Of a stretch of 64,000 nucleotides of DNA, positions 41,990-52,976 are shown one piece after another. Numbering within the stretch: position 1 is the first letter of the stretch; each line of letters begins with the position of its first letter. Origin of the DNA: Pseudonocardia benzenivorans CB1190 (lineage in GTDB: Bacteria; Actinomycetota; Actinomycetes; Mycobacteriales; Pseudonocardiaceae). The notes beneath the pieces were generated by a model. That model was not told the DNA's origin. It saw only the letters and a list, made by a program, of their open reading frames with translations, and did not search any database. The position numbers and the translations under genes were made by a program. Location: assembly GCF_000196675.2 (NCBI RefSeq), contig NC_015312.1, forward strand, positions 3,472,001 through 3,536,000, read 5' to 3'.

Positions 41990-43351
41990 TCAGAGTGACG
42001 CGATCAACCGGTCGACGCGCTCGTCGACCGCCCGGAAGGGATCCTTGCACAGCACGGTGCGCTGGGCCTGGTCGTTGAGCTTGAGGTGCACCCAGTCGAC
42101 GGTGAAGTCGCGCCCGGCCGCCTGGGCCGCCGCGATGAAGTCGCCGCGCAGCTTCGCGCGCGTCGTCTGTGGCGGGGTGTCCTTGGCCGCCTCGATCTCG
42201 CCGTCGTCGGTGACCCGCTCGACGGTGCCCTTGCGCTGCAAGAGGTCGAACAGCCCGCGACCGCGCCGGATGTCGTGGTAGGCCAGGTCGAGCTGCGCGA
42301 TACGGGCGTGCGCGAGGTCCAGGTCGTGCCGCTGCCGGTAGCGCTCGACGAGCCGGTGCTTGATCGCCCAGTCGATCTCGCGGTCGATCAGCGACAGGTT
42401 CTGGGTCTCGACGGCGTCGAGCACCCGGCCCCACAGCTCGACGACCCGCTCCATCGTGCGGTCCTCGCTGCCGCGGGCCTGCAGGTGCTCGACGGCCCTG
42501 GCGTGGTACTCGCGCTGGATGTCCAACGCGCTGGCCTCCCGGCCCCCCGCGAGCCGGACCGTGCGCCGCCCGGTGAGGTCGTGGCTGATCTCGCGGATCG
42601 CCCGGATCGGGTTGTCGAGGGTGAAGTCCCGGAACTGGACGCCTGCCTCGATCATCTCCAGCACGAGCGTGGCCGAGCCGACCTTGAGCAGGGTCGTCAC
42701 CTCGGACATGTTGGAGTCGCCGACGATGACGTGCAGCCGGCGGTAGCGCTCGGCGTCCGCGTGCGGCTCGTCGCGGGTGTTGATGATCGGCCGGGACCGG
42801 GTGGTGGCGCTGGAGACGCCCTCCCAGATGTGCTCGGCGCGCTGGGACAGGCAGTACACCGCGCCACGCGGGGTCTGCAGGACCTTGCCGGCGCCGCAGA
42901 TGAGCTGGCGCGTGACCAGGAACGGCAACAGCACGTCGGCGATCCGGGAGAACTCGCCCTGGCGGGCGACGAGGTAGTTCTCGTGGCAGCCGTAGGAGTT
43001 GCCGGCGGAGTCGGTGTTGTTCTTGAACAGGTAGATGTCGCCGCCGATGCCTTCGTCGACCAGCCGGCGCTCGGCGTCGACGAGCAGGTCCTCGAGGATG
43101 CGTTCGCCGGCCTTGTCGTGGGCGACGAGCTGGGTGAGCGAGTCGCACTCGGCGGTGGCGTACTCGGGGTGGGATCCGACGTCGAGGTAGAGGCGCGCGC
43201 CGTTGCGCAGGAAGACGTTGGACGACCTCCCCCAGGACACGACGCGCCGGAACAGATAGCGGGCGACCTCGTCCGGCGAGAGCCGGCGCTGGCCATGGAA
43301 GGTGCAGGTGACCCCGAACTCGGTCTCGACACCGTAGATCCGACGCTGCAT
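41990..43351 (-). CDS. pafA: Pup--protein ligase PafA
   Basis: A 453-residue ATP-dependent ligase that joins the C-terminal glutamate of Pup to substrate lysines. The N-terminus [18 protein letters not shown] carries the catalytic-site Glu pair, and [41 protein letters not shown] and [17 protein letters not shown] are family signatures of the glutamine-synthetase-like fold. The dop paralogue lies 13 kb away in the window. It is separated from the pafBC genes by two small genes. Confidence 0.96.
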
Positions 43352-44985: not shown

Positions 44986-46110
44986 TCAGGCCGGCGGGGC
45001 GTAGCGGAGGGTCGCAGCGACGTCCCCGCCCTGCGGGACGTCCTCGCGCCGCACGGCCAGCAGCCGGGCGCCCGAGAGCCACGCCCGCCGCGCGATCTCG
45101 TCGACCACACCGCTCGAGCCGTCCGTGTCCGGCGCCGCGAAGGTCACCTCGCCGAGCGGGTCGACATGCCCGGGCACCTCGGCGTCGATGTCGACGAACA
45201 GCGTCTCCACGGCGCCCCGGGTCGCGAAGCGGGCCAGCTCGGCGACGTCGATCGAGGTGCGGCCCTGCTCGGAGCGTTCGGCGAAGGTCCGCTTCTCCTG
45301 CTCCAGCCGGTCGGCGTACCAGCCGTCGAGGACCGTCCGCGCCTCGGTGACCAGCTCGCCGTCGCCGCGCCCCTCCGGGTTGCCGGGCACGCTGTGCGGC
45401 ACCAGGTCCGGGTAGCGGCAGTGGGCGCGGAAGATGCTGTCGAGCGGTTCTGTCGCGGCCACGACCAGCGGGACCCCGTGGCCCGGCAGCACCTCGCGCA
45501 GCGCGGCGTCGACCAGCCGGGAGAATTGGGCCATCCGCAGTTTCTGCCCCTCCGAGCCCTGCAGCCGGCGGATGGGCGCCCGGTCCTTGATCGACGACTT
45601 GCCGACCGCGCTCGCCACGTCGGTGGGCATGTCGGGGACGCGTACCTCCCGTGGCGGCGCGTCGGGCACGGTCTCCAGCAGCCGGACCGACCCCTGCGCC
45701 AGTGCCAGCACGAACGCCGTCTGCGGGAACGTCACGGCCCGCATGAGCGGCATGACGAGGAACCGGGTCCCCCCGACCGCCCGTGGTGCGAGCCGGTTCG
45801 GCAGCCGGAAGCTGCGCAACGAGGTGGGCGTCGCGAACACGGCCAGGCTGCGGGCCTGGTGCCGCCAGAAGTCCTCGGAGTCCTCGTCCTCCAGGACGGC
45901 GAGCTGCTCCGCCAGCGCCTCGTGGTCCTTCCGGTCCACGTCACCCAGCTGGGCCAACGCCTCCCGGACCCCGTTCTTGTACGCGATCCGCTCAGCGTCC
46001 CCAGAGGACTCGGGCGCGGTCTCCAGGTAGATCGAGACGGCGGCAACCTCGTCCACCTGCACCAGGGCGTCGATCTCGGATCGGGTCGGGATGTCGGTGT
46101 AGAGCGTCAT
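44986..46110 (-). CDS. baeRF family protein (bacterial archaeo-eukaryotic release factor-like)
   Basis: A 374-residue soluble protein. The N-terminal part (residues 1-110) and the central VLALAQGSVRLLETVPDAPP segment, followed by the C-terminal LARFATRGAVETLFVDIDAE and DEIARRAWLSGARLLAVRREDVP, match the eRF1 domain 2/3-like layout of baeRF proteins. GGAGGG precedes the ATG. These are predicted to act on stalled or hibernating ribosomes. I see no GGQ motif, as in most members. It converges on the PAP2-kinase gene. Confidence 0.75.
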   Translation of the reverse strand: MTLYTDIPTRSEIDALVQVDEVAAVSIYLETAPESSGDAERIAYKNGVREALAQLGDVDRKDHEALAEQLAVLEDEDSEDFWRHQARSLAVFATPTSLRSFRLPNRLAPRAVGGTRFLVMPLMRAVTFPQTAFVLALAQGSVRLLETVPDAPPREVRVPDMPTDVASAVGKSSIKDRAPIRRLQGSEGQKLRMAQFSRLVDAALREVLPGHGVPLVVAATEPLDSIFRAHCRYPDLVPHSVPGNPEGRGDGELVTEARTVLDGWYADRLEQEKRTFAERSEQGRTSIDVAELARFATRGAVETLFVDIDAEVPGHVDPLGEVTFAAPDTDGSSGVVDEIARRAWLSGARLLAVRREDVPQGGDVAATLRYAPPA

Positions 46111-46183: not shown

Positions 46184-47134
46184 TCAGAGGTTCTGGACGT
46201 GCTGGAACCCGAACCGGCCCTTGACGCAGAGGTGGCCGTGGGTGACCGAGTGGTCGGCCGGCGAGGTGACGTTGACGATCGAGCCCTGCTGCACGTGCAG
46301 CTCCAGGTTGCAGCCGACACCGCAGAACGAGCAGATCGTCGTCGTGACGGTCTCCTCCTCGGGATCCCAGTCATCGGCCTCACGCAGCTCGTGCTCGCGG
46401 ACCGACTTCAACGCCCCGGTCGGGCACACCCCGATGCAGTTGCCGCAGTAGACGCACGCGGAGTCGGGCAGCTCGGCGTCGAACTCGGTGGCGATGCGGG
46501 CGTCGAACCCGCGGCCGGCCGCGGAGATCGCGAAGGTGAACTGGGCGTCGGTGCCGCACGCCTTGACGCACTTGTAGCAGAGGATGCAGCGGGAGTAGTC
46601 GCGCACGTAGAGGTCGTTGTCGACCTTGACGGGCTGGGCGACGGTCTCGGCGTGCGAGCCGTCCGGGGCGTGGTGGTGCCCGGCGTGGCGGCGGTCGCGC
46701 TCCCCCGCGGCGGCGGGCGGCGCGGGCGGGCCGTACCGGTCGGCGTCGACGCCGTAGTCCTGCATCCAGCGGGCGACGTCGGCACCGGCCTGGCTCATGT
46801 CGACCGACGACGCCAGCAGCTCCAGGACCATCCTGCGTGAGTGCCGCACCTTCTCGCTGTCGGTGCGCACCTGCATGCCGTCCTCGACGGTGCGCGCGCA
46901 CGACGGCACCAGCACCCGCGAGCCCTCGACCTCGACGACGCACACCCGGCAGGCGTTGATCGGCGTCAGGTTCGGTGCCCAGCACAGGGTCGGGGTGTCG
47001 GCCTGCTCGGGCGTGCCCTCGGCCTTCATGGCCTGCAGGATCGTCGACCCCTCGGGGACGCGGACCTCGCGGCCGTCGACGGTCAGCGTGACGACCCGCT
47101 TGATCTCGCCCAGCATCACCGGCGCGGTTGTCAT
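46184..47134 (-). CDS. Formate dehydrogenase iron-sulfur subunit carrying the FdhA Fe4S4 domain
   Basis: A 316-residue electron-transfer protein. Domains in order: a [2Fe-2S] NuoG-type domain (TLCWAPNLTPINACRVCVVE and VPSCA), the NuoG His-Cys region, a His-rich insert (RRHAGHHHAPDGSH, ~145-160), two [4Fe-4S] clusters (CILCYKCVKACG and CVYCGNCIGVCPTGAL), and a C-terminal molybdopterin-Fe4S4 domain (CSFCGVGCNLELH ... LCVKGRFGF). The last normally forms the N-terminus of the catalytic subunit, which here lacks it. The ATG overlaps the NuoEF-like stop (ATGA). It should wire formate oxidation to NAD reduction. Confidence 0.9.
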   Translation of the reverse strand: MTTAPVMLGEIKRVVTLTVDGREVRVPEGSTILQAMKAEGTPEQADTPTLCWAPNLTPINACRVCVVEVEGSRVLVPSCARTVEDGMQVRTDSEKVRHSRRMVLELLASSVDMSQAGADVARWMQDYGVDADRYGPPAPPAAAGERDRRHAGHHHAPDGSHAETVAQPVKVDNDLYVRDYSRCILCYKCVKACGTDAQFTFAISAAGRGFDARIATEFDAELPDSACVYCGNCIGVCPTGALKSVREHELREADDWDPEEETVTTTICSFCGVGCNLELHVQQGSIVNVTSPADHSVTHGHLCVKGRFGFQHVQNL

Positions 47135-49011
47135 GGTCCGACCCTCCTGTGGCCGTTGGTGGACGGATCGGCCGGCGACGACAGCAGCCGCAGCGACAAC
47201 GCCGACTGCACCGCCGCCGGGGCGGTCTGGCCCAGCCCGCAGATCGACGCGTCGCGCATGACGCGGGCGAGGTCGTCGAGCAGGGCGAGCTCGGTCTCAC
47301 GGTCGCCGAGCGGGGCACCGCGCTCCAGCCGAGCCAGCGCCTCCTCCTGGCGGACCGTCCCGACCCGGCACGGCACGCACTGCCCGCAGGACTCGTCGCG
47401 GAAGAACGCGGCGATCCGGCGCAGGGTCGCGACCAGGTCGGCGTCGGTGTCGAACGCGAGCACCACACCCGAGCCGAGCGTCGCGCCGATCTCGCGGGCG
47501 CCCTCCAGGGTCAGCGGGACGTCGAGCTGGTCGGGCATGACGAACCCGCCCGCCGCGCCGCCCAGCAGGATCGTGCGCAGCTCGCCGCGCAGCCCGCCGG
47601 CGAGGGTGAGCAGCTCCCGCAACGTGGTGCCGAACTCGACCTCGTAGACGCCGGGGACGGCGACGGAGCCGGCGACGCAGAACAGCTTCGTTCCGGTGGA
47701 CCGCTCCGCGCCGACCGAGGCGAATGCCGGGCCGCCGACGTCGAGGACCTGCAACACGTTGTACAGCGTCTCGACGTTGTTGATCACCGTGGGTTTGCCG
47801 AACAGTCCCGACACACTCGGGAACGGCGGCTTGTTGCGCGGCTCCCCGCGGAACCCCTCGATCGAGTTGAGCAGCGCCGTCTCCTCGCCGCAGATGTAGG
47901 CGCCCGCGCCGCGGCGCAGCTCGATGTCGAACGTGAAGCCCTCGCCCAGCACGTCCGCGCCGAGGAAGCCGCGGCGGCGGGCCTCCTCGATCGCGTGCTC
48001 CAGGCGTCGCGTGGCCAGCGGGTACTCGCCGCGGATGTAGAGGTAGCCCCGTTCGCAGCCGGTGGCCCAGCCGGCGATCGTCATGGCCTCGACCAGGCCG
48101 AACGGGTCGTACTCCATGAGCACGCGGTCCTTGAACGTGCCCGGCTCGGACTCGTCGGCGTTGCAGACCAGGTAGTGCGGGCGGACCTGCGCGGTGGCCA
48201 CGCCCTCCCACTTGACGCCGGTGGGGAACGCGGCACCACCGCGCCCGGTCAGCGCCGAGTCCTTCAGCTCCCGCACGACGCGGGAGGCGCCCAGCTCGAC
48301 GGCGCGGCGGAGGGCCTCGTAGCCGCCGTGGGCGCGGTAGTCGTCGAGGCTGCCCGGGTCGACGACACCGATGCGCCGCAACAGCCGCAGCCCCTCCCCG
48401 CGCGGCGCGCGGGTCTGCGGGACGCTCACGCGGGGGTCGGCGAAGGCCGCGTCGGCCTCGACCGCGGTGGCGCCGCCGCGGGCGGCCGCGACGACGTCGT
48501 CGGCGTGCGCGGGGGCCTGGCTGAAGTCCGGCTCCCCCGCCACCTGGAACATGACCGCGGGCGCGCGTTCGCACAGGCCGAGGCAGGGGCTGCGTACCCA
48601 GCAGGCCTCCTCGCCGACGCCCTCGGGGCCGAGGTCGGCCGTCAGCCGCGCGGCCAGGTCCTCCCCACCCACGGGCCCGCAGGCGACGTCGTCGCACACG
48701 TGCACGACCCGCCGCGCGCGCGGCTCGACGGTGAACATCGCATAGAACGTGGCCACGCCGTAGACGTCGGCGGGCGGCACCGACAGCCGGGTGGCGACGT
48801 GGTTGAGCGCGCCCTCCGACAGGTACCCGACCGCGTCGGACACCGCGTGCAGGGCGGGCAGCAGCAGGTGGCGGCGGCCGCGGGCCTCGTGCCCGGAGTC
48901 GGGTCCGGCGCGGTCGTCGACCTCACGCGGGCCCAGCAGCGGGTCCAGCAGGGCGTCGACGGCCGCCCGTTCCTCCGCGGTGGCCTCGGCCGCCGACAGA
49001 CGCAGGTCCAC
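47131..49011 (-). CDS. Formate dehydrogenase NAD-binding subunit (NuoE-NuoF fusion)
   Basis: A 626-residue diaphorase subunit. Residues ~50-175 are NuoE-like with [2Fe-2S] ligands in VCDDVACG and CLGLC. From ~200 the NuoF-like part has the FMN/NADH-binding ALTGRGGAAFPTGVKW, YLVCNADESEPGTFKDR and GAGAYICGEETALLNS, and the [4Fe-4S] motif ESCGQCVPCRVGT. It transfers electrons from the Fe-S subunit to NAD+. AAGGAGG precedes the GTG 12 bases after the fdhA stop, and the stop overlaps the next gene. Residues 30-50 form a polar Arg/Gly-rich linker. Confidence 0.93.
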   Translation of the reverse strand: MDLRLSAAEATAEERAAVDALLDPLLGPREVDDRAGPDSGHEARGRRHLLLPALHAVSDAVGYLSEGALNHVATRLSVPPADVYGVATFYAMFTVEPRARRVVHVCDDVACGPVGGEDLAARLTADLGPEGVGEEACWVRSPCLGLCERAPAVMFQVAGEPDFSQAPAHADDVVAAARGGATAVEADAAFADPRVSVPQTRAPRGEGLRLLRRIGVVDPGSLDDYRAHGGYEALRRAVELGASRVVRELKDSALTGRGGAAFPTGVKWEGVATAQVRPHYLVCNADESEPGTFKDRVLMEYDPFGLVEAMTIAGWATGCERGYLYIRGEYPLATRRLEHAIEEARRRGFLGADVLGEGFTFDIELRRGAGAYICGEETALLNSIEGFRGEPRNKPPFPSVSGLFGKPTVINNVETLYNVLQVLDVGGPAFASVGAERSTGTKLFCVAGSVAVPGVYEVEFGTTLRELLTLAGGLRGELRTILLGGAAGGFVMPDQLDVPLTLEGAREIGATLGSGVVLAFDTDADLVATLRRIAAFFRDESCGQCVPCRVGTVRQEEALARLERGAPLGDRETELALLDDLARVMRDASICGLGQTAPAAVQSALSLRLLSSPADPSTNGHRRVGP

Positions 49012-49023
49012 GTGCCTCCTTAC

Positions 49024-50955
49024 TCAGCTGCCGGCGGCGGGCAGCCGCGGCTCCCCGGAGTCCGCAAGCTTCTCGATCCGGATCGCGGTCGCCTTGAACT
49101 CCGAGGTCCCGGACTTGGGGTCCCAGGCGTCGTTGGTCAGCACGTTGGTGTCGACCTCCTCGGAGAAGTGCGGGGTGAACGACGCCAGCCCGGGCCGCAG
49201 CGACGGGTCCAGCGCCACCGGCGCCTCGACCGCGCCGCGTCGCGACACGACGCGCACCCGCTCGCCGTCGGCGATGCCGAGGCGCGCGGCGTCCTCCCGG
49301 TCGATCCGCAGCGACTCCCGGCGGCGCATCGGCGAGGAGTACCCGCCGCTCTGCACCCCGGAGTTGTAGGCGTCGAGCAACCGGACCGTCGTGAGCCGGA
49401 TCGGGAAGTCCTCGTCGAGCGCGTCCACGGGTGGCACGTGCTCGACCGCGGTGAACGGAGCGGGCCTGCCCAGCTCGGCCGGGTCGTCCGACCACAGCCG
49501 GGCGTGCATCAGCGGCGTGCCGGGGTGGTCGAGGGTCGGGCACGGCCACTGCAGCCCGCCGTGCTCGTCCAGCCGGGCGTAGCTCATGCCGTGGTGCCAG
49601 TCCAGCGACAGCGACCGCAGCTCGTCCCACACCTGCTCGGCCGTCGGCTCGCCCCAGTCGTGGCCGAGGCGGTCGGCGATCGCGCAGATGATGTGGGTGT
49701 CGGGGCGGGCCTGGCCGGGCGGGTCGATCGCCTTGCGGACCCGTTGCACCCGCCGCTCGCTGTTGGTGACGGTGCCCTCGTACTCGCACCAGTCCGCCGC
49801 CGCGGGCAGCACCACGTCGGCCAGCTCCGCCGTCGCCGTCCGGAAGATGTCCTGCACCACCAGGTGGTCGAGCGACTCGAGCAGGTGCCGGGCGTGCGCG
49901 GCGTTGGCCTCGGACTCGGCCGGGTTCTCGCCGATGCAGTACAGCGTCCTGAGGGTGCCGGCCTCCATCGCCTCGAACATCTGCGACAGGTGCATGCCGG
50001 GCCTCGGCGAGACCGGCACTCCCCACGCGGCCTCGAAGCGGGCCCGGGCCGTCTCGTCGCCCAGGTCGTAGCCACCGGGCAGCTTCGCCGGGATCGCGCC
50101 CATGTCCCCGCCGCCCTGGACGTTGTTCTGCCCGCGCAGCGGTACCAGCCCCGAGCCGTAGCGGCCGACGTGGCCCGTCAGGAGGGCGAGGTTGATCAGC
50201 GCGAACACGTAGTCGGCGGCGTTGTGGTGCTCGGTGATGCCCAGCGTCCAGCAGATCTGGGCGCGGTCGGCGCGGGCGTAGGCGTGGGCGAGCTCGCGGA
50301 TCAGCCCCGCGTCGACCCCGGTGATCTGCTCGGCCCGCTCCAGCGTGTACGGCTCGACGGTGCGTGCGTAGTCGTCGAAACCCGTGGTCGCGCGCTCGAT
50401 GAACGCGTGGTTGACCAGGTCGGCGTGGATGATCTCGCGGCCGATGGCGTTGGCCAGCGCGATGTCCGTGCCGACGTCGAGCCCGAGCCACCCGTCGGCC
50501 CAGCGGGCGGTGGAGGTGCGCCGCGGGTCGACCGAGTACAGGCGGGTGCCGTTGCGCAGCCCCTGCAGGACGTGGTGGAAGAAGATCGGGTGGGTCTCAC
50601 GCGCGTTGGAGCCCCACAGGACGAGGAGGTCGGCGTGTTCCGCCTCGACGTAGGCGGAGGTGCCGCCGCCGGCACCGAAGACTGCCGTCAGACCGACGAC
50701 GCTGGGAGCGTGTCAAGTCCTGTTGCAGGAGTCGACGTTGTTGCTGCCCATCACCACGCGGGCGAACTTCTGGGCCGCGTAGTTCATCTCGTTCGTGGCC
50801 TTCGAGCAGCTGAACATCCCGAACTCGTCGGGCGTGCGGCCGCGGAACCCGGCGGCGGCACGGTCGAGGGCTTCGTCCCATGTCGCCGGCCGCAGTACGC
50901 CGTTCTCACGCACCAGGGGCTCGGTGATCCGCACGTGACGGGGACGGCGAGGCAT
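49024..50955 (-). CDS. fdhA: Formate dehydrogenase catalytic subunit, selenocysteine-containing (UGA readthrough)
   Basis: A 643-residue molybdopterin enzyme encoded across an in-frame UGA at 50713-50715 (residue 81). Context is DSCNRT-Sec-HAPSV, where the Mo/W-ligating Cys or Sec and its conserved neighbour His stand in FdhA enzymes. The frame is open on both sides: MPRRPRHVRITEPLVRENG before, and TAVFGAGGGTSAYVEAEHAD, GLVPLRGQNNVQGGGDMG and a C-terminal molydopterin-dinucleotide-binding domain after. A SECIS hairpin follows the UGA. GGAGG precedes the ATG. The chain lacks the usual N-terminal Fe4S4 domain, supplied by the 46184 gene. It oxidises formate to CO2. Confidence 0.92.
50680..50715 (-). 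promoter_or_regulatory. Bacterial SECIS element of fdhA
   Basis: In mRNA sense, UGA (50715-50713) is followed by 18 bases and then the loop GGUCU (50694-50690), closed by a six-pair stem (50700-50695 with 50689-50684, one G-U pair). E. coli fdhF has the same apical GGUCU at the same 18-base distance from its UGA, where SelB binds. The element lies inside coding sequence, as bacterial SECIS elements do. Confidence 0.88.
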
Positions 50956-51011: not shown

Positions 51012-51908
51012 TCAGTCGGGTCGGCCGGATTTGTCCTCGGCGACGACGCGGGCCGGGCCGGGTCCGGCCCGCACGCCCAGGACGTCACCGGTGACCAGCG
51101 GGGTGTCGGGGTCGTCGGCGGCGGTGCTCGCCCGGCACGCGTCCGCGAGCACGACCGCCGCATCGGTACCCACCCGGACGGCCAGGGCGGCTCGTGCCTC
51201 GCCCAGCGTGTGGGCGCGTACCGCTGCGCTCTCGGCGACCGGGACCCGCGGCGCCTGCCGGGCGAGTGCCGCCGCCCAGTCCTGCGGAGTGTTGACGTTG
51301 AGCAGCGAGTCCAGATCGGGATCGAGCCGGGCGAGCACCGGATCGGCGAGCAGCGCGGGTTCGTCGGGCCTGAGCACGCGGCAACGCTCGAACAGGTCGG
51401 GCGGGCGCAGCACCCCGTCGGCGACCAGGCTCGTGACCAGTGCCGACAGCGTGGTGCGATAGGCGGCGGCGAGCGGTTGGGGGAAGCCGTGCACCTGCGG
51501 GACGACGACGTCGGGCGCGTCCGGCCCGCCGAGCAGCGCGAGCACGCGGCGGACGTAGGCGGGGTGCAGCAGCGGCAGGTCGGTGGCGGTGACGAACGCG
51601 GCGTCGGCGCGGTCGGCGAGCGCCGCCAGCCCGACGGCGATGCCCTGCAGCGGACCGCGGCCCTCGACGGGGTCCTCGACGACCTCGACCCGCCTGGGCA
51701 GCGGCGGCAGCGGCTGCGCCGGCGCGCGGACCACGACGACGGGCCCGCCGACCCCCCGGGCCACCAGCGCGGCGACCCGGGCCACCAGCGGGACACCGTG
51801 CCAGTCCAGCTCGGCCTTCGCCGTCCCCATCCGCGACGACCGTCCGCCCGCGAGCACGATCCCCGCCGTCCGTGCGGTCCGCGCGGTCCCCGGTCCGCCG
51901 ATGCCCAT
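51012..51908 (-). CDS. mobA: Molybdenum cofactor guanylyltransferase MobA with C-terminal extension
   Basis: A 298-residue protein whose first ~200 residues are MobA: GIVLAGGRSSRMGTAKAELDW (nucleotide-binding GG-RMG-K), VEVVEDPVEGRGPL, FVTATDLPLLHPAYV and LLNVNTPQDW. It attaches GMP to molybdopterin for the bis-MGD cofactor of the formate dehydrogenase beside it. About 80 extra residues follow, with RAHTLGEARAALAVRVG and a DVLGVRAGPG-like end, faintly like a MoaD/ubiquitin fold without a terminal GG. The ATG lies 8 bases after TAGCAT (leaderless). It precedes fdhA by 56 bases. Confidence 0.88.
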   Translation of the reverse strand: MGIGGPGTARTARTAGIVLAGGRSSRMGTAKAELDWHGVPLVARVAALVARGVGGPVVVVRAPAQPLPPLPRRVEVVEDPVEGRGPLQGIAVGLAALADRADAAFVTATDLPLLHPAYVRRVLALLGGPDAPDVVVPQVHGFPQPLAAAYRTTLSALVTSLVADGVLRPPDLFERCRVLRPDEPALLADPVLARLDPDLDSLLNVNTPQDWAAALARQAPRVPVAESAAVRAHTLGEARAALAVRVGTDAAVVLADACRASTAADDPDTPLVTGDVLGVRAGPGPARVVAEDKSGRPD

Positions 51909-52148
51909 GGGCGGCGATGCTAGCGAGGCGGCGGCGCCGCCGGAGTCGGTGTCGCCGTCCTCGTTCGCGGGTGTGCGGCGCGGTGACCCGGGACGGTGGC
52001 CGTGCGCGCCGGGCTCGCGCGCCGCCGGCCGGAGTCTCCGTGCGACGTCCGGGCGAGCTCCGGTCGATCACCGGCGCGACACGGCGGGCCGCGGGCTCCT
52101 ACGCTGGGCAGTGGGTGGTCCGCGCAGGTCCACCGGACGGGAGTGGAC

Positions 52149-52976
52149 ATGGGTCGGGTCACGGTGCGACGACCGGTGCTGCGGATCGGGCCCGACGGGC
52201 AGCAGCGTCGCCGGCCGGACGCGCTGGCCGCCGAGGAGCCGCTGGAGATCCGCGTCGACGGCAGTCCGTTGTCGGTCACCATGCGCACCCCGGGACACGA
52301 CGTCGAGCTCGCGCACGGCTTCCTGCTCACCGAGGGCGTGATCGGTTCGCCGCAGGACCTGCTGGCCGCGCGGTACTGCGACTCGGTCGACGACCAGGGC
52401 CGCAACACCTACAACGTCCTCGACGTCGCGCTGGCGCCGGGTGTGGAACCGCCGGACACCTCGTTGGAGCGCAACTTCTACACGACGTCGTCGTGCGGGG
52501 TGTGCGGGAAGGCCTCCCTCGACGCGGTGAAGCTGAAGTCCCGCTTCCCCCCCGCCGCCGACCCGGTGCGCGTCGACTACCGCACGATCGTCACGCTGCC
52601 CGACGCGCTGCGCGAGGCGCAGAAGGTGTTCTCCTCGACCGGTGGGCTGCACGCCGCGGGCCTGTTCACCGCCGACGGCGAGCTGCTCGTGGCCCGGGAG
52701 GACGTCGGTAGGCACAACGCCGTCGACAAGGTGCTGGGGCGTGCGCTGCTCGACGGCCGCATCCCCGCGACGGGGACGGTGCTGATGGTGTCGGGACGGG
52801 CGTCGTTCGAGCTGGTGCAGAAGGCGGTGATGGCCGGGGTGCCGATGATGACGGCGGTGTCGGCGCCGTCGTCGCTGGCCGTCGAGCTGGCCCTTGAGAC
52901 GGGCATGACGCTCGTCGGGTTCCTGCGCGGCGAGACGTGCAACGTCTACGCCGGGGACGAGCGGATCGTGCTGTGA
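52149..52976 (+). CDS. fdhD: Formate dehydrogenase accessory sulfurtransferase FdhD
   Basis: A 275-residue FdhD, which passes sulfur from a cysteine desulfurase to the Mo-bis-MGD cofactor before insertion. The essential Cys pair is in [13 protein letters not shown], and [19 protein letters not shown] and [16 protein letters not shown] are hallmarks. GGGAG lies before the ATG at 52149. It is divergent from the mobA-fdh operon and overlaps the next VOC gene by 4 bases. A -10-like TACGCT lies about 45 bases upstream. Confidence 0.93.

Follow-up and report, generated by a model that had tools for sequence, protein, structure and literature searches.

The window, a 64-kb stretch of DNA (64,000 nucleotides) from the soil actinomycete Pseudonocardia benzenivorans CB1190, contains three formate dehydrogenase genes on the minus strand in the order fdhA-fdhB-fdhC, with FdhB standing between FdhA and FdhC. 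The first gene, fdhA (49024..50955, minus), encodes a 643-residue bis-MGD catalytic subunit with a predicted selenocysteine at position 81 (Sec81) and without the N-terminal Fe4S4 domain. The start codon ATG is located at 50955-50953 and the stop codon at 49026-49024, and the sole internal stop among the 643 codons is the TGA of codon 81 (50713..50715, minus; 50715-50713 in the direction of reading). This codon, which we read as selenocysteine, occupies the metal-ligand position in CNRT-U-HAPS. It falls in the same alignment column as the Sec (X) of E. coli FdhH (FdhF; 1fdi/1aa6), where the Sec ligand is also followed by His, and Arg333 of FdhH corresponds to R274. Direct reading and this alignment confirmed the preliminary description, according to which an in-frame UGA falls at the metal-binding residue and both flanks lie in one frame with no other stop. 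Its remark that a naive annotation would split the gene also proved correct: without recoding, standard ORF calling yields 50713-50955 and 49024-50208. Except for the UGA, the frame is undamaged and retains the conserved residues.

FdhA matches PF00384 at residues 9-429 and PF01568 at residues 520-623. With TIGR01591, the match covered model positions 52-672 of 672 and reached 619.6 bits, under the cut-off of 666.25 for a full-length alpha subunit; positions 1-51 are missing. An AlphaFold model of FdhA (mean pLDDT 69.9), used solely for fold assignment, gave E. coli FdhH as the top Foldseek match (TM 0.79 by query length against 1fdi), and Rhodobacter FdsA chains were among the next.

The second gene, fdhB (47131..49011, minus), begins 12 nt after fdhA. 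It encodes a 626-residue protein in which a NuoE-like [2Fe-2S] domain is fused to a NuoF-like FMN/NAD(H) diaphorase. The third gene, fdhC (46184..47134, minus), overlaps fdhB in the sequence ATGA. Its 316-residue product is a HoxU-like electron-transfer subunit with one [2Fe-2S] and two [4Fe-4S] sites and a C-terminal formate dehydrogenase Fe4S4 domain. A diaphorase with NuoE- and NuoF-like modules and a HoxU-like relay, which characterize the FdsABG type, are both present.

Directly upstream of fdhA lies a gene for a MobA-like molybdenum cofactor nucleotidyltransferase (51012..51908, minus), which matches PF12804 and scores below the curated MobA cut-offs. It is followed by the divergent fdhD (51996..52976, plus) for the accessory sulfurtransferase (NF001943, 392.5 bits; cut-off 269), in which the family match starts at residue 52, at about position 52149. 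For comparison we used a set of 80 loci, the best 80 of at least 578 relatives (the 80-locus set). Among the 43 loci of this set longer than 17 kb, a MobA-like gene was found near fdhA in 6 and fdhD in 16, and both were therefore rejected as fixed neighbours. The ORF downstream at 46110 (374 aa) had no match in the 80-locus set and was dropped as a member of the system. A promoter and terminator scan found nothing. The start of another ORF of the window (41990-43351, minus) may resemble the Pup ligase PafA.

The Fe4S4 domain in FdhC

TIGR01591 model positions 1-49 fall on FdhC, which is encoded two genes downstream of fdhA. The detached Molybdop_Fe4S4 domain (PF04879; 46190..46351, minus) comprises residues 262-315 of FdhC (E 9e-20) and contains Cys268, Cys271, Cys275, Cys303 and Lys305. 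In R. capsulatus FdsA, a single polypeptide carries the HoxU-like part, the Fe4S4 domain and the Mo-binding part in this order, whereas in CB1190 the chain is cut after the Fe4S4 domain. Residue 312 of FdhC aligns with residue 302 of FdsA, and residue 8 of FdhA with residue 307. Since these two ends nearly abut, essentially no sequence was lost at the cut. Lys305 sits in a C-V-K-G motif, which aligns with the same motif in FdsA. These alignments show that, as encoded, the formate dehydrogenase chain is divided at the junction of the Fe4S4 domain with the Mo-binding part, and that the first piece is encoded two genes downstream.

The four Cys residues and Lys305 are kept in all of the 70 FdhC homologs. 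FdhC has 16 conserved Cys, twelve of them in 70/70 homologs and the other four in 69/69 homologs that reach these positions, and this number suffices for three [4Fe-4S] clusters and one [2Fe-2S] cluster. The codon and stem counts given below exclude one locus (L197), which falls short of codon 81; its FdhC is among the 70. The AlphaFold model of FdhC (mean pLDDT 59) was too poor for use.

In E. coli FdhH, this motif contains Lys44, two residues after the cluster ligand Cys42, and both activity and retention of the cluster depend on this lysine (PMC12176258). Replacement of Lys44 by Ala, Met, Glu, Gln or His left less than 0.23% of the activity, and replacement by Arg about 7%; with Glu or Met, most of the cluster was gone (PMC12176258). 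In the E. coli enzyme, the Fe4S4 domain with Lys44 belongs to the same chain as the rest of the catalytic subunit (PMC12176258), unlike in CB1190, where Lys305 would reach the active site from another chain. As FdhA and the module carrying the cluster and the lysine are naturally apart, the first electron-transfer step at the Mo centre could be studied by mixing subunits.

It is also conceivable that the enzyme is FdhF-like with another Fe4S4 partner and that the C-terminal domain of FdhC has a different function. One locus (L234, from a Chloroflexi MAG), with a UGA-type fdhA and neither fdhB nor fdhC within 8 kb downstream, would fit this explanation. However, fdhC with the Fe4S4 end lies downstream of fdhA in 20/20 operons of the genus, in 13/13 more distant operons of the sample and in 69/79 loci of the 80-locus set, and in 9 of the other 10 loci the contig ends within 2.7 kb. 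Moreover, a script found no in-frame CxxCxxxC upstream of any fdhA copy in the 80-locus set. Together with the strict conservation of the four ligands and the lysine described above, these observations make another partner unlikely.

The His-Cys3 motif was found in none of the 70 FdhC homologs, and it is present in the Cys-type single-chain formate dehydrogenase of CB1190 itself. Five single-chain loci of a group with about 40% identity (L072, L073, L075, L077 and L080) likewise lack it. Thus, its absence is no marker of the split clade.

Comparison with known enzymes and proposed mechanism

R. capsulatus FdsABG(D) (6tg9) contains the same modules as the CB1190 enzyme, i.e. NuoE-, NuoF- and HoxU-like parts, Fe4S4 domain and bis-MGD part. 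FdsA is a single chain of 958 residues with Cys386 and a His-Cys3 cluster A4 (PMC7171172). The CB1190 enzyme differs in four respects: its chain is divided, it has a NuoE-NuoF fusion and Sec in place of Cys, and the His-Cys3 motif is missing from FdhC. E. coli FdhF, the structural match described above, belongs to formate hydrogenlyase and not to an NAD diaphorase.

The closest described system is FDH3 of Actinomycetospora chiangmaiensis DSM 45062, of which CB1190 fdhABC is the ortholog. The FdhA identity is 74.7%, and the three-gene layout is common to both (640/614/316 residues in FDH3 and 643/626/316 in CB1190). The frames that we read at this locus (L188), 640, 614 (taking one of the possible starts) and 316 residues, agree with the lengths of FdhA3, FdhB3 and FdhC3 in Table 1 of PMC7176365. 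The UGA is at the same site, followed by the same SECIS with 6/6 pairs. Rohwerder et al. (2020, PMC7176365) called FDH3 a cytoplasmic, NAD+-dependent enzyme with selenocysteine in the alpha subunit; the SECIS elements of the Sec-containing formate dehydrogenases of this strain were sought by bSECISearch. All three FDH3 subunits were found by proteomics at low abundance, and formate removal during growth on 2-hydroxyisobutyrate was selenite-dependent (PMC7176365). The same report describes two further Sec formate dehydrogenases in the strain, so that its selenium dependence is not specific to FDH3.

The selenoprotein is, therefore, already known for the ortholog. As for the displaced Fe4S4 domain, the terms 'iron-sulfur', '4Fe-4S' and 'molybdopterin' have 0 occurrences in the main text of PMC7176365. 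Among the open-licence papers listed in literature searches, none describes, by its title or the start of its abstract, a formate dehydrogenase with a separate Fe4S4 domain, and hence the split catalytic chain. The two strains also differ in their other enzymes: A. chiangmaiensis is described as encoding no selenium-independent formate oxidation (PMC7176365), whereas CB1190 carries the Cys-type single-chain formate dehydrogenase. The latter is encoded beside NuoE/NuoF-like genes elsewhere in the genome (L087, C1:3239000-3249500) and is the one with the His-Cys3 motif.

We consider it very likely that the system is a three-gene cytoplasmic, NAD-linked, Mo- and Se-dependent formate dehydrogenase, in which Sec81 is inserted via a SECIS, the Fe4S4 domain of FdhC is supplied in trans, and formate electrons pass to NAD+. 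The NAD link of the CB1190 enzyme is predicted from homology. SelB with Sec-tRNA would bind the GGUCU hairpin and insert Sec81, which together with His82 and Arg274 of FdhA would form the bis-MGD active site. We infer that the C-terminal Fe4S4 domain of FdhC docks in trans on FdhA, where it would provide the first electron acceptor and place Lys305 at the Mo centre. The electrons of formate would then run through the FdhC clusters to the FMN on FdhB, and NAD+ would be reduced. Cofactor maturation would be carried out by FdhD and perhaps also by the MobA-like protein.

Formate dehydrogenases of this fold are reversible, and the physiological direction might accordingly be CO2 reduction by NADH rather than formate oxidation. 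We regard this as very unlikely in view of the selenium-dependent removal of formate by A. chiangmaiensis (PMC7176365), an observation that is not specific to FDH3.

The UGA codon, the SECIS hairpin and the selenocysteine machinery

Codon 81 could be read in 32 of the 33 full-length close copies in the genus, and it was TGA in 32/32. A sequencing error at 50713-50715 is excluded by the TGA in all genus copies read. Over the wider sets of loci, codon 81 is TGA in 74/78 loci of the sample set and in 69/79 of the 80-locus set; the remaining ten of the 79 loci that reach codon 81 have Cys.

A predicted bacterial SECIS stem-loop (50684..50700, minus) follows the UGA. Counting the U of UGA as 1, six pairs are formed between positions 16-21 and 27-32, and the loop GGUCU occupies positions 22-26 (50694-50690). 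We take this to resemble the E. coli fdhF hairpin, with 18 nt from UGA to GGUCU. For the comparison across relatives, 143 UGA sequences were used, 74 from the sample loci (CB1190 included) and 69 from the 80-locus set. Since some genomes occur in both sets, stem counts were made on the 88 distinct segments. The loop GGUCU was found in 88/88 segments, and the stem pairs were standard in 526 of the 528 cells. When the 3′ letters were redealt, none of 2000 shuffles reached 526; their mean was 506 and their maximum 514 (the control ignores relatedness). Pair 18-30 is C-G in 82 segments and G-C in 6, a compensatory flip, and pair 20-28 is U-A in 37, U-G in 30 and C-G in 21. In a set of 49 segments, 257/294 cells still paired with the 3′ arm slid by +3, vs 294/294 in register, so that part of the stem pairing is due to codon bias or usage. 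A single UGA locus (L211) retains 4/6 pairs. Among the Cys-codon relatives, stems were scored in the ten of the 80-locus set (the Cys copies of the sample set and the second copy of L217 were left out); only 3-4 of the 6 pairs are left, and the loop is altered in eight. Judged by these comparisons, the SECIS stem is plainly selected across relatives.

Single-sequence folding failed as a proof of the SECIS. The minimum-energy fold of a 45-nt stretch is another hairpin (z = 0.12), and 104/200 shuffles fold at least as well. Rfam gave no match on the 64-kb window or on a 161-bp region. The six-pair stem and GGUCU loop of the preliminary description are conserved across the 88 segments and do not appear in the fold of the single sequence.

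The genome encodes the selenocysteine machinery that the same description had named as necessary for the host. The tRNA-Sec (C1:4540397-4540488) scored 68.3 bits against a gathering score of 47, and ARAGORN reported tRNA-SeC with anticodon tca. selA reached 418.7 bits (cut-off 267.9) and selD 394.5 bits (cut-off 125). selB adjoins selA at C1:1599634-1602001, and selD, at 1602068, is divergent from selB/selA. SelB scored 241.3 bits with TIGR00475, 0.95 under the cut-off of 242.25, over model positions 2-339 of 581; the next match in the genome had 201.1 bits. In 14 control genomes, TIGR00475 matched in all 14 and exceeded the cut-off in 2, and the cut-offs of tRNA-Sec, selA and selD were reached in 5, 1 and 2 genomes, respectively. 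The SelB call was made because the protein has a C-terminal SelB-wing_3 domain, whose match passes, and because the gene is adjacent to selA.

We also compared the presence of selA with that of the UGA-type fdhA; group sizes in the three samples (genus, family and phylum) are counts made by eye from tables. In the phylum sample (copies at least 62% identical), selA was found in 35/35 UGA genomes, 1/4 Cys genomes and 229/396 genomes overall (Fisher p 4e-4). In 26 of the 35 UGA genomes the UGA itself was read at codon 81, and for the other nine the search reported a TGA of unread position. One copy (G242) begins downstream of codon 81 and is not included in the counts. In the family sample, selA was present in 33/35 UGA genomes vs 15/37 without the stop, where UGA was read in 30 of the 35 and Cys in 2 of the 37. 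A genome with a TGA of unplaced position (G724) was put in neither group. The two UGA genomes without selA at E <= 1e-60 are one with a partial selA match (G050) and an 83%-complete draft (G698). Within the genus, selA hardly discriminates (30/31 genomes with fdhA, 25/31 without). This weak association fits the presence of other selenoproteins. In CB1190, a second likely selenoprotein is the FdnG-like formate dehydrogenase alpha subunit (L158, C1:2560888-2564085, minus; NF041513, 2004 bits), in which the UGA is also followed after 18 nt by GGUCU. Unlike the split FdhA, this actinobacterial alpha subunit is a long single chain, and it belongs to a different class of formate dehydrogenases.

A residue other than selenocysteine could in principle be inserted at the UGA, for example Trp or Cys through a suppressor, or SelB might have a target other than the hairpin. 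Nothing specific points to this, although Cys would also be chemically active, and it is highly improbable given the tRNA-Sec with anticodon tca, selA, selB and selD in the genome and the equal spacing of GGUCU after the UGA of the FdnG-like gene. A dead gene for a Cys-type enzyme, with the UGA due to a nonsense mutation or a sequencing error, has next to no credibility: the single-chain enzyme beside diaphorase genes (L087) could make fdhA dispensable and the best single-sequence fold differs from the SECIS, but the idea is refuted by the conservation of TGA in both locus sets, by the intact frame with its conserved residues, by the loop and stem kept in UGA copies and decayed in the ten Cys copies, and by the Sec machinery. 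The UGA, the conserved SECIS and the tRNA-Sec, selA, selB and selD genes support the earlier proposal that fdhA of CB1190 is a selenocysteine-using formate dehydrogenase gene. Automatic annotation may truncate such genes at codon 81 and label FdhC merely as an NADH dehydrogenase subunit.

Distribution and history of the split enzyme

The 80-locus set contains 12 Pseudonocardia, 14 Actinomycetospora and 7 Streptomyces loci, some other Actinomycetota and many MAGs. The MAG labels, which can be wrong, include Chloroflexi, Acidobacteria, Eremiobacterota, Planctomycetota, Gemmatimonadetes and Dormiibacterota. Relationships were estimated with a quick maximum-likelihood tree of 99 rows (L157 and L197 left out), for which the program warned of long branches and unusual composition. 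A branch with support 100 separates the 93 split-type copies from all other rows. UGA is also found in four single-chain relatives beside the split clade (49-52% identity), whose Fe4S4 domain immediately precedes the Mo domain in the same frame. All 15 split-clade copies with Cys belong to one group of 18 rows with support 99; its other three rows are UGA copies. The split layout occurs in Sec and Cys members alike. Because the single-chain neighbours also have UGA and the Cys copies nest in one group, selenocysteine is probably older than the split and Cys a later change; the tree has long deep branches and was made by a quick method.

We think it probable, on balance, that the members of this clade, from Actinomycetota and from MAGs labelled Chloroflexi, Acidobacteria, Eremiobacterota, Planctomycetota and others, build the Mo-Se site from two polypeptides, with the [4Fe-4S] cluster and the lysine supplied in trans by the HoxU-like subunit. 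The arrangement would have arisen by a single fission in a Sec-using lineage. Members of the Streptomyces and Nonomuraea type would later have changed from Sec to Cys, and one Actinoallomurus operon would keep Sec and Cys subunits that share their partners.

The spacing of the genes varies in two Chloroflexi MAGs (L227 and L229), where about 2-3 kb separate fdhA and fdhB, vs the tight operon elsewhere. A mixture of Sec and Cys was also considered for the genus paralogs with about 40% identity and was rejected, as tblastn found no internal stop in the 11 loci examined (L072-L082); the TGAs reported in these paralogs presumably lie near the ends.

In Actinoallomurus iriomotensis NBRC 103681 (L217:8001-14763), two fdhA genes stand in tandem and are followed by a single shared fdhB and fdhC. 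The first fdhA has the UGA and the GGUCU hairpin, and the second has TGC and the changed loop GGCCT. Sec and Cys members within one clade and this tandem pair offer a natural comparison of selenium with sulfur.
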